Shown: in pieces, positions 11,412-48,524 of the stretch
Layout: each line of letters opens with the position of its first letter
Numbering within the stretch: the stretch's first letter is position 1
From: Nitrobacteraceae bacterium AZCC 2146
GTDB lineage: Bacteria; Pseudomonadota; Alphaproteobacteria; Rhizobiales; Xanthobacteraceae
Assembly (NCBI GenBank): GCA_036924855.1
Contig: JBAGRP010000001.1
Coordinates: 5,382,001-5,446,000, forward strand
Reading direction: 5' to 3'
Length of the DNA: 64,000 nt
Notes under the pieces: generated by a model
The model's database searches: none
Told to the model about the DNA's origin: nothing
What the model saw: only the letters and a program-made list of their open reading frames with translations
Position numbers and translations under genes: made by a program

Positions 11412-11596
11412 GCGCGTTATTCCTCCGTGTGGAATGGTTGATCCATTCGTGGTGCGGCTTCCGGAGTCCGGACCGCTTGCGAAAAGGCTACGCCGGACGA
11501 TGCGGATGTCAACATTCGATGAGTGTAGTGCGCTGCAAGATTGACAGTGCTCGTCGCGCTCCGCAGACAACAGGCAAATCAAAAGGAGACCAAGGG

Positions 11597-12331
11597 ATGA
11601 ACGAACTCGACTTCAGCGGCCAGCAGGTGCTGGTGATCGGCGGCTCCAGTGGCATCGGCAATGGCATCGCGCAAACGTTTCGCAGCAGAGGCGCGCGCGT
11701 GCATGTCTGCGGCACCCGCGCCAAGGCGGCGGACTACACGATCGACGAAGGTTCGGATCTGACGGGGCTCGACTACAGTTCGCTCGATGTCAGCAGCGCG
11801 GCTGCGATCGAGGCGTTTCAGCCGAAGCTCGAGCGGCTCGATGTGCTGGTGTTGGCGCAGGGCGCCGTGATCTATCGCCGCGGCGAATTCGAGATGGAAG
11901 GCTTTCGCCAGGTGATGGAAGTCAACCTGATCAGCCTGATGGCCTGCGCGACGAAGTTTCATCCGCTGCTGAAGCAGGCTGCCGGGCGGCTGATCATCGT
12001 CAGCTCGACCGCGGCCTATCACGCCACCAAGGGCAATCCGGCCTACAACGCCTCGAAGACCGGCGCGGTGGGCCTGACGCGGACGCTGGCGCAGGCCTGG
12101 GCGGAGGACGGCATTCGCGTCAACGGCATCGCGCCGGGGCTGGTCGACACCAAGATGACCAAAGTGACCACCGCCAATCCGAAGCGGCTGGAAGGCGCGG
12201 TCGCGCGGATTCCGCTGCAGCGATTGGGCACGCCGGCCGACATGGCCGGCGCGGCGCTGTTCCTGGCGTCGCCGCTGTCGGCTTACGTCTGCGGTCACAC
12301 GCTGGTAGTCGATGGCGGATTGATCCTGTGA
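11597..12331 (+). CDS. Short-chain dehydrogenase/reductase (SDR)
   Basis: This 244-aa classical SDR has the NAD(P)-binding motif GGSSGIG (about residues 15-21), the VLAQGAV (NAG-equivalent) block, the catalytic Ser in IIVSSTAAYH, and the Tyr/Lys pair in AYNASKTG. The C-terminal IRVNGIAPGLVDTKM and VCGHTLVVDGG blocks are standard. The start ATG at 11597 has AAGGAG upstream. It is divergent from the dioxygenase gene with a 185-bp shared control region in which no clear operator was seen. The substrate is unknown. Confidence 0.9.
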   Translation: MNELDFSGQQVLVIGGSSGIGNGIAQTFRSRGARVHVCGTRAKAADYTIDEGSDLTGLDYSSLDVSSAAAIEAFQPKLERLDVLVLAQGAVIYRRGEFEMEGFRQVMEVNLISLMACATKFHPLLKQAAGRLIIVSSTAAYHATKGNPAYNASKTGAVGLTRTLAQAWAEDGIRVNGIAPGLVDTKMTKVTTANPKRLEGAVARIPLQRLGTPADMAGAALFLASPLSAYVCGHTLVVDGGLIL

Positions 12332-32832: not shown

Positions 32833-32907
32833 GGGCGCGTAGCTCAGCGGGAGAGCACCTCGTTGACATCGAGGGGGTCACAGGTTCGATCCCTGTCGCG
32901 CCCACCA
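32833..32907 (+). tRNA. tRNA-Val (anticodon GAC)
   Basis: The 75-nt cloverleaf includes the encoded CCA: acceptor GGGCGCG/CGCGCCC, D arm GCTC-AGCGGGA-GAGC, anticodon stem CCTCG/CGAGG with loop TTGACAT (GAC), and T arm ACAGG-TTCGATC-CCTGT. The gene is intact because the island restores its 3' end on integration. Confidence 0.97.
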
Positions 32908-32911
32908 TTCT
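32861..32911. repeat. attL: 51-bp direct repeat in tRNA-Val
   Basis: The repeat runs from CGTTGACATCGAGG through the T arm and CCA to CATTCT. It is identical to 48286-48336, and the copies diverge immediately on either side (T versus G before, A versus G after). Confidence 0.95.
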
Positions 32912-33010
32912 AAGCCCTTGTCTCGGCTTAGTTTTTCCCCGTCGTTTGGTTTTCTGAAAACTCGTCATCTCCAGTTGGTCCCAATCTGGTCCCACTGAGG
33001 AGAATGGACG

Positions 33011-34003
33011 ATGGCTTCCATCCGTTATCACCGAGGCAAATATCAAGCTCGTGTCCGGCGTCAGGACATGCGCCCGCTGACTAAGACCTTCACCCTTCGT
33101 AAGGACGCGCTTGAATGGGCGAGGCTCATGGAGGTCAAGGCAGACCGATGTGATCTTCCTGAGGACACCAAGGTGCTTCAGACGATCACCCTCGGCGATC
33201 TCGTCAGGCGCTATCGGGACGAGGTGACCGCCCTGAAGAAAGGACGAGAAACCGAGACGCACTTCCTCAATGCATTCCTGCGGCATGCCATGTGTGCCCG
33301 GAAGGTCTCGGAACTCGGGAAGAGGGACTTCGCGGACTATCGTGACGAACGGCTCACGACATTGCAGCCCTCATCTCTGAGGCGGCAACTCGACCCCATC
33401 CAGAACATGTTTGACGTGGCAAAGGATGAATGGGGCCTCCCGATACAGGTCAACCCGGTCAAGGCGCTAAAATTTAGAGCGCCATCAAACGCACGGGAGC
33501 GACGGCTCAACGGGACCGAGTGGGAAAAGCTGCTGAATGCGGCAACTGCGGCCCGCAATCCCTACGTCACTGACATCATGCGCTTGGCGAAGGAAACCGG
33601 GATGAGGAGAAGCGAGCTGCTCCGAGTGGAAGGCAGAGACGTGGATCTCAAGAGGCGGACACTGCACATCCCCAAGACTAAGAACGGACATGCGAGAACC
33701 ATTCCTCTCACGCGGGAGGCGGTCACAATCCTCGGGCAGTATCAGGGGGAAGGGCAGCTATTCCCAATCACCCGGAATGCCCTGCGATTGGCATGGGAGC
33801 GGGTGAGGCGGAGGGCGGGGGTTCGGGACTTCCGTTTCCATGATCTGCGGCATGAAACCATCAGCAGTCTCTTTGAACGGGGTCTGACCACGCCAGAGGT
33901 GGCGCTGATCAGTGGTCACCGTGATCCCCGGATGCTGTTCAGGTATGCCCACGCGATGCGAGCGCAAATTATCGAGAAGCTTGACCGTGATCCGGTAATG
34001 TAG
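33011..34003 (+). CDS. int: Tyrosine integrase of the island
   Basis: This 330-aa recombinase has an N-terminal core-binding region (about 60-160) and a catalytic domain (about 170-325). The catalytic residues are visible: Arg in KETGMRRSELLRVEG, Lys in PKTKNGHARTIPL, HxxR in FHDLRHETISS, the second His in SGHRDPRML and the nucleophile Tyr in FRYAHAMRAQ. The start ATG at 33011 has GAGGAG upstream. Its place directly beside the tRNA attachment site is standard for a site-specific island integrase. Confidence 0.95.
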   Translation: MASIRYHRGKYQARVRRQDMRPLTKTFTLRKDALEWARLMEVKADRCDLPEDTKVLQTITLGDLVRRYRDEVTALKKGRETETHFLNAFLRHAMCARKVSELGKRDFADYRDERLTTLQPSSLRRQLDPIQNMFDVAKDEWGLPIQVNPVKALKFRAPSNARERRLNGTEWEKLLNAATAARNPYVTDIMRLAKETGMRRSELLRVEGRDVDLKRRTLHIPKTKNGHARTIPLTREAVTILGQYQGEGQLFPITRNALRLAWERVRRRAGVRDFRFHDLRHETISSLFERGLTTPEVALISGHRDPRMLFRYAHAMRAQIIEKLDRDPVM

Positions 34004-34126
34004 CCGCGATTCCGACGGCACATGGTCACCAATCTGGTACAATCACGTATAAGTCTCTCTCTATACATATTTGTACCAGTTTGACGGAGCCGGGGCCTCT
34101 TGTGAGGTCTTCTCCGGCAACGCGTG

Positions 34127-35968
34127 TTAGGTAGTCGAGAATATAGACGCGGCTGCCCTGAAACCGGTCATCCGATTAAGCGGTCCCCATTCTATGATGT
34201 TTTCATCGGCGAGGGTCTGCCTAAAGTCAGCATGCTTTCGGATCATGCGATTGAAATTGGATTGATCGCCACAACCAATATGGGTCTTAACATCACCGAA
34301 TGGCACCAGACCTTCGGGGTCGGCAGTGAGACGCTGCTTAATGTATCGCACCGCCTTACCAACGCTGCCCGATAGGTGTCGCTCTATAGGGCGCCATGAT
34401 GCCATTCTTACACCCGGAAAGATGTCAGGAAGGGCTTCAGCGATGCCGCTGCGTTGACTGGCAATGATGTAGCTTCGTGTCTCTGGACAACCACCGTCTA
34501 CGCACCGCCTTACGGCACCCCGACATAGTGCCTGTAGAATGAGATGGCAATTCTCACCGATCCGCACCGCTTCAGTGTCCTTAGAAGAGAAAGGGCCGCT
34601 CGAGGATGGCTGTCCTGCCGCCAAACGGCCCAGCGCCTCATAGTACGAGGTTCGATAAAACAGCGTTCCCGCAAGGATCACGTTCGGAACTGCCGCGTAA
34701 GCATTGGTCGCGTCATGACTGCCCCAATTCAAGAAGTGGACAATGGGGCCATTGCACGGAAGGAAGGCAGCGATAGCTGATGGCACATCCAGACCTCCTA
34801 ACCCGTTCTTGTGGTAGACGATGAGCCATTCCTCGTCCGGCCGGGTGAGTATGGTTTTCACTATGCCATCGATCAGGCTCGGACCATTCGTCCGAAATGC
34901 CGACTTGCCGCCAGCCTGTTTCCAGACATGGCAAGTATGGTTGTCATATCGCTTAGCGGCTGACGGAAGCACCTCGATGCCCCCTCGCTCTTCCCATAAG
35001 TGATAGGTCGTGCGGACCCGCGCCGAGGCATCGAGAGCCAGGAGGGGAAGGATGTCATCGGGCAATGTGTCCTTGTAGTCGAGGATCGTGTTGCCATACT
35101 TGCCATCCGTCCGAACGGTCACTGTCTTTCCGAACAGAAACCACAACGTTTCGACGGCCGCGACCTGATCCGCGGGGCCACCATTGACCAGTTGCAGAGC
35201 GTCGTTCAGCCAAACATGGTGGATGTCAGCGAGGTCGGGGATAGGTAGTTGTGTTCCATCCAGTATCTCACCAAGCTTCTGAAACAGTTCCTCCACCGCT
35301 GCGGCTAAGTCCGGATGACGGGAGCGTAATGGTTTAAACAGGAACCCCAACTCATCACGCGAGATCGTGAGGGTCCGTCCCGGAAGGATTGCTTCGTCCC
35401 ATATACGCACGTCCCGAGGGACATCCCGGAAGTGGAATGCGGACACGGCACTAAAGGCGCGATCTTCGCAGCGGCTTTCGATCATGCTGTGCGTCGTGAA
35501 CAGAACGCGGGCATGGCTGGGATTGCAGCTTCCGAGGAGGTTTAATTCTGCGTCGGCAGTCAGTACGGCGAAGTCCTCAGAGGTTAGTGCAGCCTCCTCA
35601 ACTATTGCCCTAATTTGCTCGCGTCGTCTGACGCAAACGAGAACCGATGAGTCGCCGTGAAGAGGTGAACGCAAGAGAGACTGGATGAAATGGATGACGG
35701 TCGAGGTCTTCCCAACGCCGGGATCAAGGCTCGACAAATAAACCACCGGCTCAGCCGTGTGCGTGGTCATCCTTTCTAGCGTTGTAGCAACAGCCTCCAA
35801 CGCGGCCCACATGTCCACGGTCGGTGCGTGGCCAATACTGGTGAAGGTCTGCCGCAATCCAGCGATAGTCTGGGCGGCAAGACCGGAACACCTGACAGGC
35901 ACCACTAGGTCTTTGATGCTGGCTTTCGGGAGCGTTGTGTTCGAGAAAAACGGTACGGTCGAACTCAT
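34127..35968 (-). CDS. Island P-loop ATPase/helicase-like protein
   Basis: This protein of about 613 aa has a Walker A motif LDPGVGKTSTV (about 80-90), a Walker B-like VRIWDEAIL (about 190) and intervening VLVCVRRREQIRAIVEEAAL and VLFTTHSMIESR blocks, the order seen in superfamily 1/2 helicases. The C-terminal 100 residues (IGCGDQSNFNRMIRKH) may form a winged helix for DNA binding. The start ATG at 35968 has GGGAGA upstream and overlaps by 4 nt the stop of a small upstream frame. I do not recognise the precise family. With the iteron-like repeats nearby, it could serve island replication or maintenance. Confidence 0.6.
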   Translation of the reverse strand: MSSTVPFFSNTTLPKASIKDLVVPVRCSGLAAQTIAGLRQTFTSIGHAPTVDMWAALEAVATTLERMTTHTAEPVVYLSSLDPGVGKTSTVIHFIQSLLRSPLHGDSSVLVCVRRREQIRAIVEEAALTSEDFAVLTADAELNLLGSCNPSHARVLFTTHSMIESRCEDRAFSAVSAFHFRDVPRDVRIWDEAILPGRTLTISRDELGFLFKPLRSRHPDLAAAVEELFQKLGEILDGTQLPIPDLADIHHVWLNDALQLVNGGPADQVAAVETLWFLFGKTVTVRTDGKYGNTILDYKDTLPDDILPLLALDASARVRTTYHLWEERGGIEVLPSAAKRYDNHTCHVWKQAGGKSAFRTNGPSLIDGIVKTILTRPDEEWLIVYHKNGLGGLDVPSAIAAFLPCNGPIVHFLNWGSHDATNAYAAVPNVILAGTLFYRTSYYEALGRLAAGQPSSSGPFSSKDTEAVRIGENCHLILQALCRGAVRRCVDGGCPETRSYIIASQRSGIAEALPDIFPGVRMASWRPIERHLSGSVGKAVRYIKQRLTADPEGLVPFGDVKTHIGCGDQSNFNRMIRKHADFRQTLADENIIEWGPLNRMTGFRAAASIFSTT

Positions 35969-36123
35969 GCCCCGTCTCCCAAGGTCGCAATTGTGCCGCG
36001 AAGGATCGAGAGGGCTGCCGGCAGATAGGAGGACGTTGAGACTGCGATTATCGAAGCGGTAGCGAAGAGGGCATTTATTGGTGGTCGGAAGGTGAAAAAT
36101 GAGATGGTGGGTTTCTCTTGCAT
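35965..36123 (-). CDS. Small hydrophobic ORF translationally coupled to the ATPase
   Basis: A 52-aa frame (MQEKPTISFFTFRPPINAL...) ends with TGA overlapping the ATG of the ATPase gene by 4 nt (ATGA), a common coupling arrangement. It has one hydrophobic stretch (INALFATASIIAVSTSSYL) and no recognised family. The frame is also open to an ATG at 36180. It may be real or just a leader for coupled translation. Confidence 0.3.
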   Translation of the reverse strand: MQEKPTISFFTFRPPINALFATASIIAVSTSSYLPAALSILRGTIATLGDGA

Positions 36124-36329
36124 GGTCTTTGCTTGGGTTGCTTCCAACGGGACTTCGGCCACAGGCCAGCAGCGACACACGGCGGTGAAGTCGGTGCCTT
36201 AGCGCGTCATTTGGAAGTGATTGAAAGGGGCGAACGAGAAGACGTTTAGATGGCAACAGCCGAGGTCTTCATCGCGGGAAGCGTCTCGCGAGCGAGATCA
36301 GCTTTGAAGGGGTGGGTTCGCCAGCGGCG

Positions 36330-36542
36330 TCAGGCGCTCGCAGTAGTAATGCAATAGGCAAGCGCAGCAGACATGGTGATCTCGCGAACGCCGATCCGAC
36401 TGGCTAGCGTCTTCCGCAGGAGATTGAGCTTCTCAAATGCCTCGTCGTCCACTCGGACGGATAGAACACGTTGTTTCTTGAATGCTGGCTTTGTGGATCG
36501 TTCGCGGTAGTGGACCCTGTTCGGGTGGTCTGGATGGTTCAT
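36330..36542 (-). CDS. Small basic protein, possible ribbon-helix-helix regulator
   Basis: This is a 70-aa protein with a basic N-terminus, then RVLSVRVDDEAFEKLNLLRKT and EITMSAALAYCITTA. The alternating VLSVRVD strand followed by two helices has the look of a MetJ/Arc (ribbon-helix-helix) fold. The start ATG at 36542 has AAGGA upstream. It lies upstream of the ATPase gene on the same strand and about 160 bp from the iteron-like array, which it may bind; both statements are inference. Confidence 0.5.
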   Translation of the reverse strand: MNHPDHPNRVHYRERSTKPAFKKQRVLSVRVDDEAFEKLNLLRKTLASRIGVREITMSAALAYCITTASA

Positions 36543-37082
36543 GACGTTCCTTTTTGATGGAGATGATCTGTGGATGTTCGTGAATGAGGCCAGCCGCGAA
36601 TGCCGGGCTGCTCGATGGTGAAGCTGTAGACGGGAGGTGTCTTTGGTAGACCAAGGGAATACCCCACCACGGACGCACACGCGGATCGGCGGGAGCCTCG
36701 TTGGTGCTAATGGTGGACATTGCCCCCCAAAGAGGTGCAGTTCGAGTTTCTTGCTGCTAATGGGTGGGAATTGGCACCCTGAGGTTCCTGCCCAGCGTCC
36801 CTTACTGCTAATGGGTGTGATTGCCCCCCGGTCTCGACGGTCCGGGATGCAGTATGGACGTGATTGCCTCTTGAGGGACCGGCCCACGCGCCTCTTACCC
36901 GGGAGGGATTGACCCTTTCCGTCGATGGTCCCGAATCGGGTGTGTGGTGTGTTAGGGCTTGCGGGTCCCAAAAGGGGATACGCGCAGCGTCATCTCTCCT
37001 TGATGATCTGCAATTGCGGGTTGTCCAAGCGGGCGAGTCTTGGCAAGTTGAGTTCCTTCAGGCGCATGGGGCATTTCCAATC
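36543..37082. other. Divergent control region between the island maintenance genes and hsdM
   Basis: This 540-bp region has no convincing gene. The hsdM frame is open upstream to 36864, but its residues there lack family similarity. The region carries the repeat array at 36705-36870 and would drive transcription both ways. Confidence 0.6.
36705..36870 (+). repeat. Iteron-like direct repeat array
   Basis: Three close copies of a 24-bp unit (TGCTAATGG.. GTG.. ATTG.C.CC) begin at 36705, 36755 and 36806, and a weaker fourth begins at 36848 (TGCAGTATGGACGTGATTGCC). Spacing is 50, 51 and 42 bp, about five helical turns, all in the same orientation. Units of this kind serve as replication-initiator or partition/repressor binding sites in plasmids and integrative elements. 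Confidence 0.65.
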
Positions 37083-38918
37083 GTGAACCACCAAAATCTC
37101 TCTTCCTTCATTTGGTCCGTTGCCGATCTGCTGCGGGGCGACTTCAAGCAATCTGACTATGGCAAGGTGATCCTGCCGTTCACGGTGCTGCGACGGCTGG
37201 ACTGTGTCCTCGAGCCGACCAAGGCGAAGGTGTTGGCTGAGCTTGCCGCGAAGCAGAAGGCTGGGCTGAACCCCGACCCGTTCCTCCTCCGCGCCTCGGG
37301 CCAGAGCTTCTACAACACCTCGCCCATGGACATGGCAAAGGTCATGGGAGATCAGGATCACATCCGAGAGAACCTGTTCACCTACGTTCAGGCGTTCTCG
37401 CCTGCCGTTCGCGACATCTTCGACCGGTTCGAGTTCACGACGCAGATTGAGAAGCTCGCCAAGTCTGGGCTCCTCTATCAGGTCGCCGAGAAATTCTCAG
37501 GCATCGATCTCCATCCTGACGCCGTTGACAACCACGAGATGGGTCTCGCCTTCGAGGAATTGATCCGCAAGTTCGCCGAACTCTCGAACGAGACAGCCGG
37601 TGAACACTTCACGCCCCGTGAGGTGATCCGCTTGATGGTCAATCTGTTGTTCATCGAGGATGACGACGTTCTGTCAAAGCCCGGCGTGGTCCGCACGATC
37701 TACGACCCGACCGCAGGCACTGGCGGAATGCTGTCGGTCGCTGGCGAGCACCTCGCTGTGCTGAACCCGCAGGCCCGGCTTACGATGTTCGGGCAGGAAC
37801 TGAACGACGAATCCTACGCGATCTGCAAGGCGGACATGCTGATCAAGGGGCAAGACGTTGCGAACATCATTGCGGGCAACACTTTGTCAGAGGACGGCCA
37901 CGCTCATGCGAAGTTCGACTACATGCTGTCCAATCCGCCGTTCGGTGTGGAGTGGAAGAAGGTCGAAAAGGAAGTCCGCAAAGAGCATGAGAGCCAGGGC
38001 TTCAACGGCCGGTTCGGTCCCGGTCTGCCCCGCGTGTCGGACGGTTCACTGCTGTTTCTGCTGCACCTCCTCTCCAAGATGCGCCGGGCAAAGGATGGCG
38101 GAAGCCGCTTCGGAATCGTGTTGAATAGCTCGCCGTTGTTCACGGGCGGCGCAGGGTCGGGCGAGAGCGAAATCCGTCGCTATCTGCTTGAGAACGATCT
38201 GGTCGAGGCCATTATCGGCCTACCCACAGATATGTTCTACAACACCGGCATCTCGACCTATGTCTGGATCGTTTCCAATCGCAAGCCCTCCCAGCGCAAA
38301 GGAAAGGTGCAGCTTATCGATGCGTCGTCTTTCTGGCAGAAGATGCGCAAAAGCCTCGGGTCCAAGCGCAAGGAGATGGGTGAAGCGCACATTGCCGACG
38401 TGACAAAGCTGTTCGGCTCCTTCGCCGAGGCACAACTCGCGACTGTCTCTGATGCCAAGGGCGCGGAGATCGTGCGACAGGTGATGATGGATGGTGACAC
38501 GCCACCGCCTTCGCCGGAGGGCGGTAGGGTCAAGCTCACGCCCCTGTCCCGCATCTTCCCCAATGAAGCGTTCGGCTATCGGACGATCACTGTGGAAAGG
38601 CCGTTGCGGGACGAGAAGGGCCAGATCGCTGTTGGCGCCAAGGGTAAACAAAAGGGCAAGCCGCAGGCCGAGGCCTCGCTGCGCGACACCGAGAACGTGC
38701 CGCTGTCGGAAGAGATTGAAACGTACTTCAAGCGTGAGGTACTTCCCCATGCAGCTGATGCCTGGATAGATGACGAGAAGACCAAGACAGGCTACGAAAT
38801 CCCATTCAACCGGCACTTCTACGTATTTGAGCCGCCGCGTTCGCTGCTAGAGATCGACGCCGATCTGCTGGTCGTCACCGACCGCATCAAGGCAATGATC
38901 GAAGGGTTGGTCGCATGA
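37083..38918 (+). CDS. hsdM: Type I restriction-modification system, methyltransferase subunit
   Basis: This protein of about 611 aa would methylate adenine (N6) at the site chosen by HsdS. The N-terminal HsdM helical domain begins [19 protein letters not shown]. The AdoMet-binding motif is [10 protein letters not shown] (about 220) and the catalytic motif NPPFG is in [12 protein letters not shown] (about 285). I place the start at the GTG at 37083 because family similarity begins right there; the open frame back to 36864 crosses the repeat array. It overlaps hsdS by 4 nt (ATGA). Confidence 0.93.
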
Positions 38919-40294
38919 GTTTATCGCGATACGACAGCTACAAAGACAGCGGCGTTGAGGTGCTTGGCAATGTGCCGCGTCATTGGCGTGTAGTCTCTCT
39001 CAAGAGAATTGTAGACCCATCCTTTCCAATAACATACGGCGTCGTGCAATGCGGACCGCATGTAGTAGGAGGCATACCCTACATTCGACCTACCGATATG
39101 TGCGATGAGGTCGGTGTAATCAATGAGCAAGCCTTACTCAGGACCTCTGAGGAAATCGTGTCGTCATACGCGCGAAGTGCCCTCCAAGTTGGCGAATTGG
39201 TTTGCTCGATTGGACCAAGTTTTGGAAAAGTGATGATAGTTCCTCCATCGCTTGTTGGCGCCAATTTGACTCAAGGTACTGCTCGCATTGCCGTGGCGAA
39301 GGAGCACGTTTCACGGTTTTTCTTTTGGGTCCTCCGCTCGATGCCTTCGTTCCATCAATGGGAAAGCAGCGTCGGAGGTGCGACTTTTAGGGCGCTTAAC
39401 CTTGGGCCGCTGTCAGAAACCATTGTCTGTGTGCCAAACTTTGATGAGCAAATTGCTATCGCGGCCTTCCTTGATCGAGAGACATCAAAAATAGATGAAC
39501 TGGTTGAAGAGCAGCGGCAACTGGCCGAGCTTTTGAAGGAAAAGCGACAGGCCCTCATCTCCCACGCTGTCACCAAGGGCTTGAACCCGAGCGCGCCGAT
39601 GAAGGACAGCGGCGTCGAGTGGCTCAGAGAGGTGCCTGAGCATTGGGAAATAAAGCGGCTAAAGAAGGTAATTCAAGAAGGGTCATCAATCTCGTACGGT
39701 ATTGTTCAGCCAGGAGAGCCGCAAGAAGCAGGTGTCCCGTTTATCCAGACAACCAACATGACTTCGGGGGCGTTCGAACTTGAGAGCCTGCAAAGAACAA
39801 CTCAAGAAATTGCGAGCGCTTACCCTAGATCGCAGCTACGAGGAGGCGAGGTCATTCTCGGTATAAGGGCATCGATAGGAGCTGCTCATGTAGTGTCACC
39901 CGCTCTTGCGGGCATGAATCTCTCCCGAGGAGTTGCACGGATTGCGTGCGGTTCATCTCTACTCAGCACGTTTTTAGTCAAATGTCTCCGTGGGCAATCT
40001 GTCGAGCAGTATTGGCAATTGAGCAAGCAGGGCTCAACTTTCAACGAAGTTTCGATAGATACGGTCCGGGAGCTCGCGATCGCTGTGCCACCTCTGAATG
40101 AACAGCAGGACATCGTAACTTATCTCGAAAGCGAAGTCGCGCGGTTCGACAATCTCATATCCGAAGTCAAACGAGCTACGGGCCTACTTCGAGAGCGTCG
40201 CGCCGCTTTGATCTCCGCCGCCGTCACCGGCAAGATCGATCTGCGCGGGCTTGAAGTGACCGACGAGCCCGTTCTTGACGTGGTCGCCGCATGA
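38915..40294 (+). CDS. hsdS: Type I restriction-modification system, specificity subunit
   Basis: This 459-aa protein selects the target DNA. It is built of two halves, each opening with a conserved box ([21 protein letters not shown] near residue 11, [14 protein letters not shown] near 230), then a variable target-recognition domain, then a helical conserved region ([19 protein letters not shown] near 200 and [19 protein letters not shown] near 425). The two variable domains recognise the two parts of a bipartite site. The variable parts are AT-richer than hsdM and hsdR. It overlaps both neighbours by 4 nt, so the operon is translationally coupled. Confidence 0.95.
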
Positions 40295-43200
40295 GCCTGC
40301 ACAAGGAAATCAGCTTCGAAGACGAGATTTGCTGTCATCTCGCCGCGCATGGCTGGCTCTACACAGAGGGTGATGCGGCGCTTTATGACCGCGCCCGCGC
40401 TCTGTTCCCGTCCGATCTGGTAGCATGGGTTCAGGCGACCCAGCTCAACGCGTGGCAAACGCTGGTCAAGAACCATGGCGCGGCAGCCGAGGCTGTGCTG
40501 CTCGACCGTATCCGCAAGCAACTTGATGATCGCGGTACACTCGATGTGTTGCGGCACGGCGTCGAACTGATGGGGCTGCGGCAACCGATAGCACTGGCCC
40601 AATTTAGGCCCGCTCTGGCCATGAACCCTGACATCCTCGCCCGCTACGCCTCGAACCGACTGCGGGTGGTGCGGCAAGTGCGATACTCGCTGGCAAACGA
40701 GAATTGCATAGACCTCGTGCTGTTCCTAAATGGCCTCCCGGTAGCCACGGTCGAACTCAAGACCGATTTTACTCAGAGCATCGGCGATGCCATCGACCAG
40801 TATCGCTTCGACCGTAACCCGCGATCGAAAGGACAGGGCGTCGAGCCGCTCTTGGGCTTTCCGAGCGGGGCGCTGGTGCATTTCGCGGTGAGCAACACCG
40901 AGGTCCACATGGCCACGCAGTTAGCTGGCCCCGCCACGATCTTCCTGCCTTTCAACAAGGGCAACAACGGTGCGAAGGGCAATCCCGTCAATCCCGCAGG
41001 CCACCGTACCAGCTACCTTTGGGAAGAGGTCTGGCAGCGCGACAGTTGGCTGGAGATCATCGGGCGTTATCTGGTGACCCGGCGCGATGAAAGGAAGAAG
41101 ATCACCAGCGTCACCTTCCCGCGCTACCATCAGCTCGATGCCACCCGGAAATTGCAAGCCAAGGTGCTTGAGGAAGGCGCTGGCGGCAAGTTCCTCATCC
41201 AGCACTCGGCAGGCTCCGGGAAGACAAACTCCATTGCTTGGTCCGCCCACTTCCTCGCCGACCTGCACGACGCCAAGAACCAGAAGCTCTTCTCCACCGT
41301 CATCGTCATCTCCGACCGGAACGTCATCGATGCCCAGCTCCAGGACGCGCTGTTCGACTTCCAGCGCACAACCGGCGTCGTGGCCACCATCAAGTCTGAA
41401 GGTGCTAGCAAGAGCGGGCAACTCGCGGAGGCACTCGCGGGAGGCAAAAAGATCATCGTCTGTACGATCCAGACCTTTCCGTTTGCGCTGGAGGAGGTCC
41501 GCAAGCTGGCTGCAACTGAGGGCAAGCGGTTCGCCGTGATTGCGGATGAGGCCCATTCGTCACAGACGGGTGAGGCTGCTGCAAAGCTCAAGCAGGTGCT
41601 GTCGCCCGAGGAGCTTGAAGACTTGGGAGACGGCGGCGAGGTCAGCGCCGAAGACGTGCTTGCGGCACAGATGGCAGCTCGCGCCAGCGACACCGGGATC
41701 ACATACGTGGCCTTCACCGCCACCCCCAAAGCCAAGACGCTGCAATTGTTCGGACGGCCGCCTAACCCCGATCTGCCAGCCGGTGACAACAATCTCCCAG
41801 CGCCCTTTCATGTCTATTCGATGCGACAGGCCATCGAGGAGGGGTTCATCCTCGATGTGCTGAAGAATTACACGCCCTATCGGCTGGCGTTCCGCCTCGC
41901 CAACAATGGCAAGGAGTGGGACGAAAAGGAGGTGGAGCGCGATACGGCTCTGAAGGGGATCATGCGCTGGGTGCGTCTGCATCCCTATAACATCAGCCAG
42001 AAGGTCCAGATCGTCGTCGAGCATTTCCGCGAGAACGTGTCGCCTCTGCTGGAGGGGCGAGCCAAGGCGATGGTGGTGCTAGGGAGCCGCGTGGAGGCGG
42101 TGCGGTGGCAGATTGCCATCGACAAATACATCAAGTCTCGGGGTTACAAGATCGGAACGCTGGTCGCGTTCTCTGGTGAGGTCGATGACAGCGATTCTGG
42201 CCCCGACGCCTTCACAGAGACCAGCAAAGTCCTCAATCCCGGTCTGAACGGGCGGGATATCCGCGATGCGTTCAAGGGCGATGAGTTTAAAATCTTGCTT
42301 GTCGCGAACAAGTTCCAGACAGGCTTCGACCAGCCTTTGCTCTGCGGCATGTATGTGGATCGGCGCCTTGCTGGCATCCAGGCGGTGCAGACCCTCTCGC
42401 GGCTGAATCGGTCCTATCCCGGCAAGGACACGACCTACGTGCTGGACTTCGTCAACAGCTCCGAGGAAGTGCTGGCCGCATTCAAGACCTACTATGACAC
42501 GGCGGAGCTGGAGGGCGTCACCGACCCCAACCTCGTCTACGATCTGCGAGCGAAGCTCGATGCGTCGGGCCACTACGATGAGTTTGAAGTGAATCGTGTC
42601 GTGGCCGTCGAGATGAACCCAAAGAGCAAGCAGGGTGACCTGATCGCCGCACTGGAGCCAGTTGCGGATCGCCTCCTGAAGCGGTTCAAACAGGCGAAGG
42701 AGAAGTTGCTCACTGCACAAGCGAAGAAGGACGAAAAGGCCACCGAGGAGGCTAACGGGGAGATTAATGCGCTGATCCTGTTCAAGGCCGATTTGGGCGC
42801 GTTCCAGCGCATGTACAGTTTCCTGTCGCAGATATTTGACTACGGCAACACCGCCATCGAGAAGCGGTTCATGTTCTATCGGCGGCTAATCCCGCTGCTG
42901 GAGTTCGGCCGCGAGCGCGAAGGCATTGATCTTTCGAAGGTGAAGCTTACCCACCATAACCTGAAGGATCAGGGCAAGCTGCAGTTGTCGCTCGGAGATG
43001 GTGACGCGCCCAAGCTGCCGCCGCTCTCGGAGGCCGGTTCGGCATCAGTGCATGAGAAGGAGAAGGCTCTGCTGGCGGAGATTATCGCAAAGGTGAATGA
43101 TCTGTTCGACGGCGACCTCACTGACGACGATCAGCTTGTCTACGTGAACAACGTGATCAAGGGGAAGTTGCTGGAATCGGAAGAGCTGGTCCTTCAGGCC

Positions 43201-43419
43201 AACAACAATACCAAGGCGCAGTTTGCGAATTCGCCGACGCTGTCGAAGGAAATTATGAATGCTGTCATGGATGCTCTTGTCGCCCACACGGCGATGAGCA
43301 AGCAAGCCATCGATTCTCCGAAAGTGCGCGAAGGGCTGAAGGATGTGCTACTCGGGCCGGGGCAGTTGTACGAAGCATTGAAAAATAAGGCGGGCGGGCA
43401 GGGACTAGAAGGCGGATAG
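40291..43419 (+). CDS. hsdR: Type I restriction-modification system, restriction subunit
   Basis: This 1042-aa motor-nuclease translocates and cuts unmodified DNA. The N-terminal endonuclease domain has the PD-(D/E)xK-type core (CIDLVLFLNG ... VATVELKTDF, about 130-155). The helicase part has Walker A HSAGSGKTNSI (about 305), the DEAH box in VIADEAHSSQ (about 417), FTATPKAKTLQLFG (about 475) and QTGFDQPLL (about 680). A C-terminal helical region completes the length expected for HsdR. No frameshift is seen, so the hsdMSR system appears intact. Confidence 0.96.
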   Translation: MSLHKEISFEDEICCHLAAHGWLYTEGDAALYDRARALFPSDLVAWVQATQLNAWQTLVKNHGAAAEAVLLDRIRKQLDDRGTLDVLRHGVELMGLRQPIALAQFRPALAMNPDILARYASNRLRVVRQVRYSLANENCIDLVLFLNGLPVATVELKTDFTQSIGDAIDQYRFDRNPRSKGQGVEPLLGFPSGALVHFAVSNTEVHMATQLAGPATIFLPFNKGNNGAKGNPVNPAGHRTSYLWEEVWQRDSWLEIIGRYLVTRRDERKKITSVTFPRYHQLDATRKLQAKVLEEGAGGKFLIQHSAGSGKTNSIAWSAHFLADLHDAKNQKLFSTVIVISDRNVIDAQLQDALFDFQRTTGVVATIKSEGASKSGQLAEALAGGKKIIVCTIQTFPFALEEVRKLAATEGKRFAVIADEAHSSQTGEAAAKLKQVLSPEELEDLGDGGEVSAEDVLAAQMAARASDTGITYVAFTATPKAKTLQLFGRPPNPDLPAGDNNLPAPFHVYSMRQAIEEGFILDVLKNYTPYRLAFRLANNGKEWDEKEVERDTALKGIMRWVRLHPYNISQKVQIVVEHFRENVSPLLEGRAKAMVVLGSRVEAVRWQIAIDKYIKSRGYKIGTLVAFSGEVDDSDSGPDAFTETSKVLNPGLNGRDIRDAFKGDEFKILLVANKFQTGFDQPLLCGMYVDRRLAGIQAVQTLSRLNRSYPGKDTTYVLDFVNSSEEVLAAFKTYYDTAELEGVTDPNLVYDLRAKLDASGHYDEFEVNRVVAVEMNPKSKQGDLIAALEPVADRLLKRFKQAKEKLLTAQAKKDEKATEEANGEINALILFKADLGAFQRMYSFLSQIFDYGNTAIEKRFMFYRRLIPLLEFGREREGIDLSKVKLTHHNLKDQGKLQLSLGDGDAPKLPPLSEAGSASVHEKEKALLAEIIAKVNDLFDGDLTDDDQLVYVNNVIKGKLLESEELVLQANNNTKAQFANSPTLSKEIMNAVMDALVAHTAMSKQAIDSPKVREGLKDVLLGPGQLYEALKNKAGGQGLEGG

Positions 43420-43455
43420 TTAGCGGGCGTCCCGACCCGAATGCGTCAATCCGGC

Positions 43456-44631
43456 TTAGGCGAGTGGGAGCCAGTCAATGGGGCCCGACGAATTGTCCAA
43501 TGGGCGATGTCCATCTCGGTGCATTTGTTCGAATTTTGGTTTCACCGCGTCCCAAACAACGTCAAATAAGTCCAACAATGTCATCCGGAAGCCAGCAAAT
43601 TCCTCAGCCCGAGTTGCCAAGACATGCATGTCATACTGATCTAAGGCATCAATCCTCTCGCGCACGGGCGGGTGGTGTTTGCGCGGGGGCGGGCAGTCTG
43701 CCCCAGTTTCCAACATCTCTCGTCCGCGAGCCACTAGGTCAAGCGCACCCAGTATTAGTGCCCCTCCAGCGCCGGAGACTAGAAATACGTCTGGCGCGTT
43801 TGGATCCAATTGGCTTACCGCGACTGAGACAATGCGGGCAAAGATGTCCGCTTCATGCTCTTCATCGAATGGCGATTCTTGGGAAATAGAAGCTTCGGTA
43901 ATGCCGTGCTTTAATGCGTGGTGACCGTATTCGTGAGCTATCGTGAATACTTCCATAGCATCCAGCAATAACGCTCGCACACCTAATGCTCTCCCTTCCG
44001 GTGCGGGCCCCAATCCCGCTGGGGGCGTACCTTCCATTGCGTACGACACTAGGACGCGCAGCCATTCCTCTACTATCCACGGCTCTGCGTTCAGTCGCCC
44101 CAGTATCGAAGCGGGGCTTAAGTCGAAAGTTGCGTTCACTTGGTCAACAAACGTGTGCGCCAACACCTTGCTTATTAAATCGCAGAAAGTGATAAAAGGA
44201 AGTGTGACCTCGATAATACTCGTGTCTGTCTTCAGCACAGGCATTTGACTGGCAACGACACCTGCCAGACGCGACACTCCAAAGACGACGCCATTTCGGA
44301 CCGGCACCTCTAGTTTGCGACATGCCGTCTCAACTCTGTCAACAATGGAGTTTAAAAGGAAAATGGCGCCTAAGTCGTCGAACTCAGACTTATCGGATTG
44401 ATTTTCTAAAAGTTCTAGAAATCTATCAGCCGTTTTTTCGGCATCTCCATCGTCAGCGCCAGCCCGTTTCGCGATTTCTATTATTGTCGCCCGATTGTCC
44501 CTCATCCATTTCAAATATTCTTCGCGGGTAGTAGCCACCGCGCCACTTTTTCTTGCATCAGCAGCTTGCCTTTGACGTCTGTACCCTTCGGCCGCATCCA
44601 ATGCCTCGATCTGCTCGCTATCGCTCGCCAT
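43456..44631 (-). CDS. Zinc-metallopeptidase-like protein of the island
   Basis: This 391-aa cytoplasmic protein has a zinc-peptidase motif HEYGHHALKHG (HExxH, about residue 237) followed 27 residues later by EEHEADIFA, whose Glu fits the third zinc ligand of gluzincin-type enzymes. The flanking regions are helical, with no signal peptide or membrane segment. The layout recalls abortive-infection peptidases such as Lit (U49) and IrrE-like proteases, but I cannot assign a family. It is convergent with hsdR, 36 bp away, and visibly AT-richer than the core genes. A defence role is inference from context. Confidence 0.6.
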   Translation of the reverse strand: MASDSEQIEALDAAEGYRRQRQAADARKSGAVATTREEYLKWMRDNRATIIEIAKRAGADDGDAEKTADRFLELLENQSDKSEFDDLGAIFLLNSIVDRVETACRKLEVPVRNGVVFGVSRLAGVVASQMPVLKTDTSIIEVTLPFITFCDLISKVLAHTFVDQVNATFDLSPASILGRLNAEPWIVEEWLRVLVSYAMEGTPPAGLGPAPEGRALGVRALLLDAMEVFTIAHEYGHHALKHGITEASISQESPFDEEHEADIFARIVSVAVSQLDPNAPDVFLVSGAGGALILGALDLVARGREMLETGADCPPPRKHHPPVRERIDALDQYDMHVLATRAEEFAGFRMTLLDLFDVVWDAVKPKFEQMHRDGHRPLDNSSGPIDWLPLA

Positions 44632-44661
44632 TTCATCTTGCCTTCTTGAAAGTCGATATCG

Positions 44662-45438
44662 CTACGATTTGCGTTGTTGAAAAAGGTCGGCTTGTTTCGC
44701 TTCATCGAGGCGCAAAACCCCAAGCAACTGCCAGGTCTGCGGTCGCTTTGCTTGATTGCCGAGGGCGAAGACCATGCCTTTGGCGGGGTACTCGACGTTG
44801 TACACGGCGGCCATCCGCTCAAGTGCTCCGCTATCTCCGTAGAGCTTTCGCCAGCGCCAGAACATGACGTGCGTCTCCCAGTCTCCATTTTGGTAGTCGT
44901 GACGGCCAGCGTCATCTTCAAACTGGAACCGGAAGTCGAATGGCGACGGCTCAAGCTCCGCTAACTCTTTGTCGAAGATCGACGTTTGCTGGGCAGCAAA
45001 TTTGTAAGCCTCCCGCTCCTCAGCGAGAGCGGTGGAGGTCTTCCGCTTAGCGATGAACTTCGTGTTACGAGGTCTGACGAGTGTGAGCGAGCGGCCTTGG
45101 CTCATCGCCTCCATCGCCGAGCCTGTGATCAGAGGGCTAAGGAGACGACTGCGCTCGGCTTGCGGAAGAGAATTCTCAACAGCGATGCTGTCTTCATATA
45201 CGTGACAACTCTCTTTGCGGTGGTCGCGCGTGGGAGGCCGGTATCCGAACCTGACCCAGTCCCACCGAGCGAAGCTGCTGTCACCTTGGAGGTGGCGGAA
45301 GCGAACTGGAAAGAGGCGCTTCCATTCCCCTTCTGCGGTCACGCCAGCACAGCAGACCGTCTCTCCGTAAGTCTTACTGGGCTGTGGCAGCGCCTTGATC
45401 AGCACGGCCACGCGGGAGCTTTGCTGCGTTGCGGACAT
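44662..45438 (-). CDS. Conserved protein paired with DUF488
   Basis: This 258-aa protein (VAVLIKALPQPSKTYGETVCCAGV near the N-terminus, then KRLFPVRFRHL, DSIAVENSLP, LTLVRPRNTKFI) is of a family I remember next to DUF488 genes in restriction and mobile regions; its function is unknown. The start ATG at 45438 lies inside the upstream DUF488 gene (65-nt overlap), so the two are co-expressed. An upstream ATG at 45501 is possible. No catalytic motif is obvious; two adjacent Cys (VCC) are conserved in my memory of the family. Confidence 0.65.
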   Translation of the reverse strand: MSATQQSSRVAVLIKALPQPSKTYGETVCCAGVTAEGEWKRLFPVRFRHLQGDSSFARWDWVRFGYRPPTRDHRKESCHVYEDSIAVENSLPQAERSRLLSPLITGSAMEAMSQGRSLTLVRPRNTKFIAKRKTSTALAEEREAYKFAAQQTSIFDKELAELEPSPFDFRFQFEDDAGRHDYQNGDWETHVMFWRWRKLYGDSGALERMAAVYNVEYPAKGMVFALGNQAKRPQTWQLLGVLRLDEAKQADLFQQRKS

Positions 45439-45886
45439 ATCGGCCGGGTTCGTCACCGTACAGGTGGAATGTGCTGATTCCCCTAGGTAGCTGAGCCGCA
45501 ACTATAAGTCGATGGCACTCTGCGGGTTCGCGCTCGAAGCACATAAGGCAGGTCGCCTGCTTCTTAACGAGTGCGGTTAGCTCCTTGAGCGTTGCCTGAG
45601 GTTCGGCCTGTGCGAGGTGCTTGTTATAGATCGCGCGGAACTGGTCATAGCGCCCCGCCCGTGCGGCCTCGCGACCATCCTTGGGATCGCCCAGCGCACC
45701 GAGATGAATGTAGCCCATCCCCTCCCGCTCGATCCGCTCTCGCAGCCCGTTCTTGGAGAAACCCTTCTTCCGTGACAGGGGCAGCGCCCTCACGTCGGCC
45801 AGAAGGTGGACGCCCACAGCCTTGAGCGTGGCCACGAACCGATCAATGTCGGTGCCTTCATAGCCAATCGTGTAGACAGTTGTCAT
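45374..45886 (-). CDS. DUF488-family protein
   Basis: This 170-aa protein has the DUF488 hallmarks: VYTIGYEGTDIDRFVATL at the N-terminus, LLADVRALPLSRKKGFSK (the DVR-P-S-R block), YIHLGALGDP, and the Cys-rich CLMCFEREPAECHRLIVA. The family is found near toxin, restriction and repair genes; no activity is established to my knowledge. The start ATG at 45886 follows a weak site; the open frame to 46015 is not similar to the family. Its tail overlaps the next gene by 65 nt. Confidence 0.82.
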   Translation of the reverse strand: MTTVYTIGYEGTDIDRFVATLKAVGVHLLADVRALPLSRKKGFSKNGLRERIEREGMGYIHLGALGDPKDGREAARAGRYDQFRAIYNKHLAQAEPQATLKELTALVKKQATCLMCFEREPAECHRLIVAAQLPRGISTFHLYGDEPGRYVRNAAKLPRGRADQGAATAQ

Positions 45887-46027
45887 GGGGCAAATCATTC
45901 CAGCTTGATGCGATGCTGCTCTGCACCGGTTAAGGTCTCGTTGCAACCCAAGCACGTGACGCAAATACACTGATCTGGTTCCATCGATCAGCTTGCCACA
46001 GCCGTGTCCCGGCACAGCCCGGCAAGA

Positions 46028-46567
46028 TCACTCCAAGGCGCGATACACAGACGCGCGACCGATCTTGAGGGCCTTCGCGATGGCAGATGGACCCATGCCT
46101 TGTGCCTTCATCTCGCGCACCTTCGCGGTATCGATTTTGGACGGGCGGCCCTTGTAAACGCCTGCGGCCTTGGCCTTGGCGATGCCTTCCATCTGGCGCT
46201 CCTTTCGTAGGTTCGTCTCGAACTCAGCGAACACGCCGAGCATGTCGAGGAAAGCCTTACCGGCTGCAGTGCTCGTATCGATGGGCTGCTCGGTGGCCTT
46301 GAGCGATGCCCCCTTGGCCCTCACAGCCCGCACGATGTCCTGCAGGTCGCCGATGCTACGTGCCAGCCTATCGATCCGGGTGACCATCAGCACATCGCCA
46401 ACCCTCAAAAAGTCCAATACCGTCTGCAACTCGGTGCGACCGTTGGTGGTCGTGCCTGATCGCTTCTCGGCACGGATCATGTCGCACCCGGCGGAAAGCA
46501 GAGCGGCCTCCTGTATCTCCAATCTCTGATCGGTGGTGCTCACTCGGGCGTAGCCGATAACGGTCAT
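46028..46567 (-). CDS. Serine recombinase (Tn3/Hin resolvase type)
   Basis: This 179-aa protein has the resolvase catalytic domain with Ser in GYARVSTTDQ (residue 10), VLMVTRIDRLARSIGDL, and EFETNLRKERQMEGI. A C-terminal helix-turn-helix (MKAQGMGPSAIAKALKIGRASVYRAL) binds the crossover site. Length and order match Tn3-type resolvases and DNA invertases. The start ATG at 46567 has AAAGGA upstream. A res-like cluster of half sites lies immediately upstream (46579-46662). No transposase is nearby, so its role may be dimer resolution of the island or it may be a transposon remnant. Confidence 0.92.
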   Translation of the reverse strand: MTVIGYARVSTTDQRLEIQEAALLSAGCDMIRAEKRSGTTTNGRTELQTVLDFLRVGDVLMVTRIDRLARSIGDLQDIVRAVRAKGASLKATEQPIDTSTAAGKAFLDMLGVFAEFETNLRKERQMEGIAKAKAAGVYKGRPSKIDTAKVREMKAQGMGPSAIAKALKIGRASVYRALE

Positions 46568-46578
46568 GGTCGATCCTT

Positions 46579-46702
46579 TGTCTCATATGGGTCTAGACCA
46601 CGGACGATTAGTGTCTCATAAATCGAACGTCAACCCTTGTGAGACGGTTGGGCTGTCTCACGTCGGTGCCTCGTCGGGGTATACCCTAACGGACGTTCGA
46701 TT
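46579..46702. promoter_or_regulatory. res-like site of the serine recombinase
   Basis: Resolvase-like half sites TGTCTCATA occur at 46579 and 46612, TGTCTCACG at 46654, and an inverted GTCTCACAA at 46646-46638. GTGAGAC and GTCTCAC form an inverted repeat (46639-46661). AATCGAACGTC (46621-46631) is repeated in inverse as GACGTTCGATT (46692-46702). The arrangement directly upstream of the resolvase gene resembles the multi-site res regions of Tn3-type elements. Confidence 0.55.
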
Positions 46703-46826
46703 GAGAGTGAGGCGCGTTCGCCCTCGACCATAGCTGTCGCTGACCGCCGCTGCGAAGGTATGATATGGGGTATCTCGTCGGCTGCATACACGACGAGCCG
46801 AAGGTACGTAGCAAGAGAGATCAGCA

Positions 46827-47471
46827 GTGCAGGTAGGGAAGAACGACAAGCTCGCCGGGGTGCGCTTGATCAAGGTGCGAGATTTTCTGAGGCAGCACGA
46901 TGAAAGCTTCAGCGGTGAGGCTCTTGCTGAGTTCTTCAAGGTCAATGGTGACCGGAAGCAAGAAATCGAACAAGGGCTACTCGGCGCTGGTTATTCAGAA
47001 CACCACCAGAGTGAAAAATCGCGCTATCTCGTCACGTCTCTCGGTCGGCAACTGTGCAATGCCAAGTTCGTCTCGCGGATTTCAAGAGAGCAGGCCCAGA
47101 CTCTGGTCCGATCATTTCTCGATCGGGTCGCCAGCATCAATGAGCGGGACGAACTCACGCACAGGGTTACGGGTGTTCGTGTCTTCGGCAGCTATGTTGG
47201 AGAGAGAGCCGACTTAGGCGACGTTGATCTTGCAGTAGCCATGGAGCCACGACGCGAGACCCACGTTGAGGAGAGCATCAAGCGAGCCGAGCAATCGGGT
47301 AAATCGATCCGCAATTTTATTGACCGGCTTTTCTTTGGTCAGAACGAAGTCAAGAAGATCCTCAAGGATGGAAGTCCCTACCTCTCCATTCATGACTTCG
47401 ATGAGGTGGAGAAACTGGGTACTCCCTACGAGGTGCTATTCTCACGGGATAAAGACCTGTCAAATGTCTGA
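46827..47471 (+). CDS. Nucleotidyltransferase-fold protein with N-terminal winged helix
   Basis: This 214-aa protein carries the DNA polymerase beta-type nucleotidyltransferase motif GSYVGERADLGDVDLAV (G-S then DxD, about residues 117-133), with both catalytic Asp present. The N-terminal 90 residues (FLRQHDESFSGEALAEFF) look like a winged helix. Minimal nucleotidyltransferases often act as antitoxins or toxins that AMPylate or modify tRNA. The start is a GTG at 46827 with a weak site. The next gene starts inside this one (8-nt overlap), so they form an operon. Confidence 0.7.
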   Translation: MQVGKNDKLAGVRLIKVRDFLRQHDESFSGEALAEFFKVNGDRKQEIEQGLLGAGYSEHHQSEKSRYLVTSLGRQLCNAKFVSRISREQAQTLVRSFLDRVASINERDELTHRVTGVRVFGSYVGERADLGDVDLAVAMEPRRETHVEESIKRAEQSGKSIRNFIDRLFFGQNEVKKILKDGSPYLSIHDFDEVEKLGTPYEVLFSRDKDLSNV

Positions 47472-48070
47472 GGGCCACGACGACGAAGAGCCCGGATTAG
47501 CCGACCTTATCGAGGCGAACCTGCGTCCTTGGAGCAGCTATTGGACGTGGAAGCATAAACCAACGGGGGAGAGTCGAGCTGCTTCTGAAATCCTCCGAGG
47601 CGCCGGTATCGTTGCAGAGGGCCTTGTCTCGCGTGGTGATCAAGACCCGCCTGATTGCGAAGCCAAGGTGGAAGGCTGTTTAACAGGCATCGAGGTCACC
47701 GAACTTGTCCATCAGCCGACCTTGGAACCGATCTTTGAAGGCGCTAAAGCAAAGGGCCCAAGGGAAGGAACCTACGAAAGGGGAGGCCTACTTTGTTTGG
47801 GACCGCGCCGATCTACTTGGCGCTCTCCAAGCTCGCATTGACGATAAGGACCGAGCGAAACTCAAAGGTGGGCCGTACGAGCGGTACATCCTTGTTGTCT
47901 ACACGGATGAGATGTTCCTTTCAGCCCCGCAGGTAGAACAGTGGCTGACAGGAGCGACGTTCCGAGCCAACCGCATCACCGACGTATTGCTTGGGCTGTC
48001 CTACGATCCGGCTCAGAAGAGCTGCCCAGTCTTCAAGCTTTGCGTCGTCAATTCAGGCCATGAAGGTTAG
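47464..48070 (+). pseudogene. Frameshifted hypothetical, possibly nuclease-like
   Basis: The first frame starts at ATG 47464 (MSEGHDDEEPGLADL) and remains plausible to about GIEVTELVHQPTLE. The second, +1 frame then continues SLKALKQRAQGKEP, GEAYFVWDRADLLGALQ and YERYILVVYTDEMFLSAP to the stop at 48070. The frames join at 47745-47752 if one C of an ACCG is surplus, giving about 200 aa. The DPPDCEAKVEG...GIEVTEL segment resembles a PD-(D/E)xK-type core (Asp, then E-V-T-E). Either the gene is recently broken, or this is a sequencing error or recoding. Confidence 0.55.
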
Positions 48071-48524
48071 GGTACGGGGGAATTGGGGGCCGTCCGACAC
48101 GTAACTAGCCTCTCACATTTTTAGTTAGAATTTGCAGGTGGCCCTCGAAAGCGGGCCCAATCTGGTCCCACTGAGACGCGTTTTGGGGCCGCTTGCAAAC
48201 TTTCAAAGCAGACGCTAGAAGCGATAACCAACTGAAGATGAAGGATTTTTCAGAAGGGCCAAACACGACGGAGAGCTGCTGGCGGCGTTGACATCGAGGG
48301 GGTCACAGGTTCGATCCCTGTCGCGCCCACCATTCTGTCCCTGAACCCGCAGACTGCCCCGCCGCCGACATGGGGCAAGCCGTTCAGGCGGGCGGCGTTG
48401 CCGTCTCGTGGACGTTTTTGCGCGTCAGCCCTGCAAATCAAAATTCTATTCCAAGAACAGCCATGTTCGTGGCATGATTCGGTTTCAGCTCGATGTCGAG
48501 TTTCGACCGGAAAGTAATGCCAGA
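48071..48524. other. Right border region of the island
   Basis: No convincing gene is seen. It holds attR at 48286-48336 and, after it, the upstream region of the glutamine-amidotransferase-like gene. Confidence 0.6.
48286..48336. repeat. attR: second copy of the 51-bp tRNA-Val repeat
   Basis: It is identical to 32861-32911 and includes the 3' end of the tRNA (anticodon loop side to CCA) but no 5' half, so no functional tRNA is encoded here. It defines the right edge of the island. Confidence 0.95.

Follow-up and report, generated by a model that had tools for sequence, protein, structure and literature searches.

A 15.4-kb defence-type island at tRNA-Val in Nitrobacteraceae bacterium AZCC 2146 and its relation to small tRNA-targeting elements with a DinG-like helicase

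Layout of the island

The window, a stretch of 64,000 nucleotides from Nitrobacteraceae bacterium AZCC 2146 (contig JBAGRP010000001.1, positions 5,382,001 to 5,446,000; the genome is one contig of 7.64 Mb), contains an island at a tRNA-Val gene. The bacterial family of this genome includes Blastochloris and Pseudolabrys, as identical sequences in named records show. A preliminary description, made from the sequence alone, had presented it as a mobile defence-type island bounded by a 51-bp duplication. We consider it reasonably probable that the island is an integrative element of 15.4 kb, one of a family of small elements (5.5-15.4 kb) that target tRNA genes and have in common an integrase and a DinG-like helicase. 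A serine resolvase is often present as well, and two members have a primase fused to the helicase.

The plus strand of the island carries the integrase, the type I restriction-modification genes hsdM, hsdS and hsdR, and a nucleotidyltransferase-like gene with its partner, while the minus strand carries a 71-aa gene then the helicase and, in reading order, the resolvase, the DUF488 protein, PDC-M19B and a metallopeptidase-like gene (Table 1). Much of this had been anticipated: the integrase at the left border, three hsd open reading frames (ORFs) of the expected size, the DUF488 pair and the resolvase (Pfam, PADLOC) are all present and, as had been stated for conjugation genes, no conjugation or relaxase family was matched in a Pfam scan of 13 island ORFs, nor were capsid or other structural genes recognised in them. 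The metallopeptidase-like gene, which had been grouped with hsdMSR, does exist as a weak match but is convergent with hsdR and lies outside that operon; likewise, the proposed nucleotidyltransferase operon retains its nucleotidyltransferase-like gene, but its second gene is frameshifted and the pair is not intact. The 613-aa helicase and the 71-aa gene (34127-36545, minus strand) had been overlooked. The evidence supports the view that the earlier reading was incomplete rather than wrong.

Table 1. Coordinates of the features of the island and its target gene, numbered from the first position of the window.
Feature	Position	Strand	Evidence or remark
tRNA-Val(GAC), intact, target gene	32833..32907	+	ARAGORN; sole tRNA in the window
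attL copy of the 51-bp direct repeat	32861..32911	+	One copy in relatives' empty sites
Probable left integrase arm-type site, two 7-mers spaced 11 bp	32977..32999	+	Same layout before int in 10/10 loci examined
Tyrosine integrase, 330 aa	33011..34003	+	PF00589 (Phage_integrase), E 2.1e-25
Helicase of 613 aa, DinG/XPD-like, superfamily 2 (SF2); hallmark gene of the elements	34127..35968	-	ORF readable from 36256
71-aa protein upstream of helicase, perhaps a ribbon-helix-helix regulator (by eye)	36330..36545	-	67% identical to one in L087; no Pfam match
Three to four similar stretches before the 71-aa gene at intervals of ~40-50 bp, candidate operator or origin	36703..36870	.	By eye
hsdM, type I methyltransferase	37083..38918	+	PF02384, PF12161; PADLOC MTase_I; chosen start GTG 37083, giving 611 aa
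hsdS, specificity subunit	38915..40294	+	PF01420, two stretches
hsdR, restriction subunit	40291..43419	+	PF04313, PF18766; TIGR00348 below its cut-off
M78/U41-like metallopeptidase, weak match	43456..44631	-	PF06114, E 0.0035, below cut-off; PADLOC peptidase_U41, E 1.9e-7
PDC-M19B candidate defence protein	44662..45501	-	PADLOC, E 3.4e-33
DUF488 protein, PDC-M19A candidate	45374..46015	-	PF04343, E 8.4e-32; PADLOC, E 1.9e-31
Serine resolvase, 179 aa	46028..46567	-	PF00239, E 2.5e-38
Nucleotidyltransferase-like protein	46827..47471	+	Weak PADLOC PDC-S09, E 4.7e-4; L099 homologue weakly matches Pol-beta palm
Nucleotidyltransferase partner gene, frameshifted	47464..48070	+	Intact homologues of ~200 aa exist
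Probable right integrase arm-type site, 96% identical to left	48153..48175	+	Right-end copy in 7/7 elements examined
attR, right-hand 51-bp repeat, covering only the 3' part of the tRNA	48286..48336	+	Repeat search

Insertion site and boundaries

The two 51-bp repeats are 100% identical and, as the preliminary description had it, delimit the island, with an insert of 15,425 bp from repeat to repeat; no longer direct repeat was reported between 31.5 and 50.5 kb. Each corresponds to the last 47 nt of tRNA-Val(GAC) and 4 nt beyond; the left copy lies inside the intact tRNA gene and the right copy is an orphan 3' part (ARAGORN), so that the tRNA duplication also holds. The G+C content per kb is 52-61% in the island, compared with 54-71%, mostly >59%, outside.

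The tRNA-bearing left flank and the right flank were searched in 18 congeneric genomes, our own and 17 others, and this insert is present in just one of the 18. The empty sites that had been predicted were found: in ten of the 17 relatives (G001, G002, G003, G004, G008, G013, G014, G015, G016, G017) a single-copy site is plainly empty, with the tRNA followed by the right-flank peptidase C26 gene within ~200 bp, and in two more (G006, G010) a spacer of ~0.7 kb separates the flanks. The same tRNA is occupied by other inserts in two relatives (G005, 14.3 kb with a 24-bp repeat; G007, 51.4 kb), and three are uninformative (flanks 1.16 Mb apart in G009; contigs ending in G011 and G012). When the window flanks were joined by script, four of the 12 empty loci aligned across the junction in one piece; the remaining eight aligned as two pieces around a spacer, the first piece passing the junction by 34 and 3 bases in two of them. 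The same gene order without a breakpoint at the repeats, which would have spoken against an island, was not seen, as the relatives break at the repeats. These empty sites, together with the other inserts at the same tRNA, indicate that tRNA-Val is an insertion hotspot and that the island is a clean insertion. With an integrase by the tRNA, the tRNA 3' end duplicated at the far end and empty sites in relatives, the island has the hallmarks of a tRNA-targeting integrative element.

Of the two other inserts at this tRNA, the one of 14.3 kb (L044, G005:C1:802500-820000) combines an integrase of the Arm-DNA-bind_3 type with a protein of 868 aa that has Prim-Pol and PriCT-2 domains, and the 51.4-kb insert (L041-L043, G007:C1:1037600-1092500) has a large serine recombinase directly after the tRNA.

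Putative arm-type sites of the integrase

A pair of 7-mers with the consensus NGTCMCA-N4-NGTCMCA lies shortly upstream of the integrase start and has a counterpart ~110-155 bp in from the right end; both pairs are probably arm sites of the integrase. Across loci with integrases of this clade, to which the survey was restricted (L098, L102 and L108 were left out), the pair precedes the integrase in all ten loci, nine times exactly and once (L091) with one mismatch, and a far-end pair occurs in all seven elements, five times exactly and with one mismatch each in the window and L087. Further one-mismatch matches were found once elsewhere in the window (61044) and once in L096. No exact and two one-mismatch matches occurred on both strands of 400 kb of control DNA, a count that measures rarity and is no independent prediction, since the motif was derived from the same loci. 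We also considered whether integrase and arm site change together, and did not uphold this: the variant GGTCCCA is common to the window and L088, but L083 has the common form though its integrase is equally similar (56%) to the window's.

The helicase and its predicted role

The 613-aa protein shows a structural match across both motor domains and the inserted domains of DinG/XPD-like SF2 helicases. It was named by none of the four family libraries used, had no PADLOC match, and no published description of its family was found in the titles and abstracts that term searches of the open-licence literature brought up, where such a failure leaves absence unproven. The four conserved cysteines of the iron-sulphur type were not recovered: across 41 sequences only C482 and C494 are invariant, with C112 nearly so. 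Bacterial and CRISPR-associated DinG helicases share just 10-14% identity with it, and their four-cysteine set is absent from the conserved columns of the island-helicase alignment. The helicase is rare on plasmids (3/72,556 records) and was found in 0/50,697 phage records, while one relative sits on an IMG/VR contig.

In two relatives (L083, 932 aa; L102, 910 aa) the helicase is fused C-terminal to a RepB-type primase domain and PriCT-2, and from these fusions we infer that the helicase likely serves replication of the element. The 71-aa gene upstream was tried as a further general core gene and rejected, since among 397 genomes of the order it is matched in its own genome alone, and otherwise only in L087, with no plasmid match.

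A family of related tRNA-targeting elements

When species genomes were scanned for a pattern taken from the helicase alignment, 29 loci emerged, 24 of them titled as alphaproteobacteria, four from other groups (L098, L111, L113, L114) and one (L109) titled Proteobacteria only. Profile matches near the helicase revealed an integrase in 21 of the 29 and a resolvase in 11, and a tRNA was present in 16; L092 and L093 are the same records as the profile-seed sources L080 and L081, and without them the counts are 19, 9 and 14 of 27. As a control, 20 fixed stretches of 20 kb each, drawn from three genomes of the same bacterial family, contained no integrases, no resolvases and three tRNAs. The eight loci without an integrase all have their match at most 10 kb from a contig end.

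A direct repeat of at least 16 bp at the tRNA 3' end was found in 13 of the 23 distinct tRNA-bearing helicase loci, with repeats 17-164 bp long that enclose 5.5-14.8 kb. All 13 bounded relatives contain an integrase and a helicase match and eight a serine resolvase too, and in nine the helicase is close and full-length (profile E <1e-110). The elements of the family target tRNA genes for Val, Leu, Thr, Ala, Arg, His and Phe. We regard integration, boundaries and family membership as established by sequence comparison.

The same cargo modules were found near related helicases in other genera. The tRNA-Thr element of Microvirga alba (L110) is bounded and shares with the island an integrase, a resolvase, arm-type sites, a helicase (45% identical) and the DUF488/M19B pair (60 and 59%), but it measures 8.6 kb between repeats, lies at a different tRNA, has no hsdMSR that we could find and, where the island has its metallopeptidase, carries a DUF2971 gene following M19B. 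Near the helicases of L106 and L107, HsdR is 74-75% and HsdM 68-85% identical (the L107 HsdM match is in two pieces) but HsdS only 31-34%, as if the specificity had been replaced beside conserved HsdR and HsdM. A more distant hsdMSR set occurs in L101, and a nucleotidyltransferase homologue (50%) lies ~4.5 kb from the helicase in L099 (Bradyrhizobium). No boundary repeat was found in L099, L101, L106 or L107. A homologue of the nucleotidyltransferase partner gene (P0124) and a 79%-identical helicase (P0015) each lie on an ENA contig of 18,273 bp, probably one and the same.

Defence-type cargo was recognised in at least six of the 13 bounded relatives (L084, L086, L087, L110, L115, L118), and Pfam and PADLOC matches include GmrSD (L084), NACHT (L086), Mrr (L115) and a C5 methylase (L118). 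These come from 60 mechanically chosen cargo ORFs of at least 120 aa, with result tables grouped by family without members, so that some matches could not be placed.

Several of these loci have features of their own. The genome of the window holds a second, more distant element (L086, G000:C1:2979288-2988455), 9.2 kb long at tRNA-His with a 17-bp repeat, an integrase, a resolvase, a distant helicase and a NACHT protein. In L087, an element at tRNA-Arg, the cargo comprises a UG6 reverse transcriptase (PADLOC E 1.6e-275), an exonuclease of the RNase T type and a primase resembling DnaG (L087:9376-15344). A 764-aa protein with a terminase RNaseH-like domain, a possible phage link, lies inside the tRNA-Leu element of a Hwanghaeella metagenome-assembled genome (L115:13853-16144). 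In Ruegeria (L101) two helicase genes of equal length and score (306-2210 and 9851-11755) flank the distant hsdMSR set, perhaps as two tandem elements or as a duplication.

Comparison with known systems and alternative explanations

P4-like, PICI and tycheposon elements combine an integrase and a primase or helicase module with variable cargo; we liken the island to them by general description rather than by sequence. Tycheposons are named in PMC11389934. The PICMIs of Vibrionaceae are defined by int, AlpA and a DUF3987-type primase and integrate at fis (PMC10803314). The island is like them in being small, with an integrase, its own replication gene, no structural genes, and restriction-modification and other defence cargo at a hotspot, but it has no AlpA match, a DinG-like helicase instead of the primase and tRNA-Val instead of fis as its site. 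AlpA (PF05930) had no match in the whole genome, with a positive E. coli control (PF12728, also used for PICMIs, was not searched), and in place of a PICMI- or PICI-type primase gene the scanned island ORFs offer a helicase only. The Pseudomonas tmRNA islands I23, I44 and I55, in which AlpA, YqaJ and RadC are frequent according to PMC12595487, share with the island a tyrosine integrase, direct repeats at the 3' end of an RNA gene, defence cargo and a lack of transfer genes. Unlike them, the island has a helicase and a resolvase, and it resides at a tRNA rather than a tmRNA, so that neither the tmRNA site nor the AlpA of the I55 type is found here. The relaxase that would mark an integrative and mobilisable element is absent among the scanned ORFs.

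Such likenesses raise the possibility, which we hold to be real though not probable, that the island is a phage satellite which, as happens with PICIs or PICMIs, a helper phage would induce and package into its own particles. Its small size, integrase, replication-type gene, defence cargo and lack of recognised structural genes recall the PICMIs (PMC10803314), and one of the similar tmRNA islands is moved by a jumbo phage (PMC12595487); the terminase-type domain in a bounded relative and the IMG/VR contig point the same way. However, AlpA is unmatched, no PICMI-type primase domain was found in the island ORFs, and the helicase is missing from the phage records. It is rather unlikely that the island instead borrows the relaxase of a conjugative element through a mimic of an origin of transfer, as a mobilisable element that has none of its own. 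Helicases and resolvases are plasmid-type functions also, no transfer genes were recognised in the scanned ORFs, and the fused relatives carry a RepB-type primase; the missing relaxase family is neutral here, and the rarity of the helicase on plasmids argues against this reading. Still less likely, in our estimation, is a once mobile and now stationary defence island with helicase and integrase as remnants: the frameshifted cargo gene and the presence of the insert in a single congeneric genome would fit, but the repeats are perfect, the integrase, helicase, resolvase and hsd genes are open, and arm-type sites are found at both ends. Finally, we think it quite improbable that the helicase is a defence protein carried as cargo rather than a replication protein. 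Other helicases are central to defence systems (the YprA family, PMC12458937) and DinG belongs also to type IV CRISPR effectors (PDB titles), yet this helicase recurs while the neighbouring genes change, is fused to a primase domain in two relatives and escapes PADLOC.

Several observations count against an integrative element of the proposed family. No primase domain was recognised in the scanned island ORFs by family-library searches. An iteron origin was considered and rejected: a joint matrix of the window and L087 recovers the repeats upstream of the 71-aa gene in both, where they had looked alike, but a matrix from L087 only did not set the window copies apart, and scores in control DNA were equally high. 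Among the distinct tRNA-bearing helicase loci, ten of 23 show no tRNA repeat of at least 16 bp, and among the 13 that do, the repeat is as short as 17-18 bp in four. Distant helicases occur in L084, L086 and L087 (profile E 1e-32, 2e-11 and 7e-6, respectively), and L118 has a fragment of 315 aa; of the six relatives with defence-type cargo, only L110 and L115 are also among the nine whose helicase is both close and full-length. The broken partner of the nucleotidyltransferase is possibly a sign of decay.

Proposed mode of life and significance

Our best reading remains that the island is a helper-dependent defence element that excises itself and probably replicates itself, and that it is real and probably functional. 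The tyrosine integrase of the element would have inserted it into the 3' end of tRNA-Val(GAC), and the layout suggests that this enzyme recombines the 51-bp cores while bound to the 7-mer pairs within the two ends. Judging from the primase-fused relatives, the excised circle could be copied by the helicase with the primase and polymerase of the host, and the resolvase, as its family suggests, may reduce multimers. For its transfer the element would depend on a helper, either a phage or a conjugative element, which is the weakest step of this proposal. The cargo, namely the type I restriction-modification system, the DUF488 pair and the nucleotidyltransferase pair, may protect both host and element, going by the families involved.

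More tentatively, as a view to which we give rather less than even credence, the island may represent an unnamed, mainly alphaproteobacterial family of autonomously replicating satellites integrated in tRNA genes, defined by paired 7-mer arm sites and a helicase or primase-helicase of DinG-like type, in many cases together with a resolvase, which would shuttle restriction-modification specificity, DUF488 and nucleotidyltransferase modules between genera, with a wider circle of elements with distant helicases carrying GmrSD, NACHT and reverse-transcriptase modules. The element is of a familiar kind, with an integrase-helicase core that we found described nowhere in the literature searched. The helicase, as hallmark gene, connects a defence island of ordinary appearance with a mobile family that can be recognised. 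This gene, the arm-site pattern and the tRNA boundaries offer a handle for finding such elements and mining their cargo, and the unknown genes beside defence-type cargo are reasonable defence candidates.

Cargo genes

The defence label of the cargo rests on family matches to type I restriction-modification and to the PADLOC candidates PDC-M19A and PDC-M19B. The predicted type I system comprises hsdM, an hsdS with two target domains and an hsdR with a nuclease N-domain and a helicase; HsdR has 1042 aa, compared with 1044 and 1054 aa in two relatives. The DUF488 protein (M19A) adjoins M19B, as in the candidate PDC-M19 system, a two-gene definition that we took from the PADLOC model names. The nucleotidyltransferase partner gene is split over two frames relative to all seven intact homologues compared, its first part running to 47727-47796 and the remainder, in another frame, from 47711-47729; a sequencing error could account for this. 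Sequence searches at E 0.01 returned no solved structure for the metallopeptidase or the DUF488 protein. The metallopeptidase was tried as a third part of the DUF488 system and rejected: 15-16 kb around its distant homologues L129 and L130 match none of nine other window genes, and in L110 the DUF2971 gene comes after the pair instead. The metallopeptidase-like gene is rare, occurring at E 1e-15 in three of 397 genomes of the order, its own genome included.

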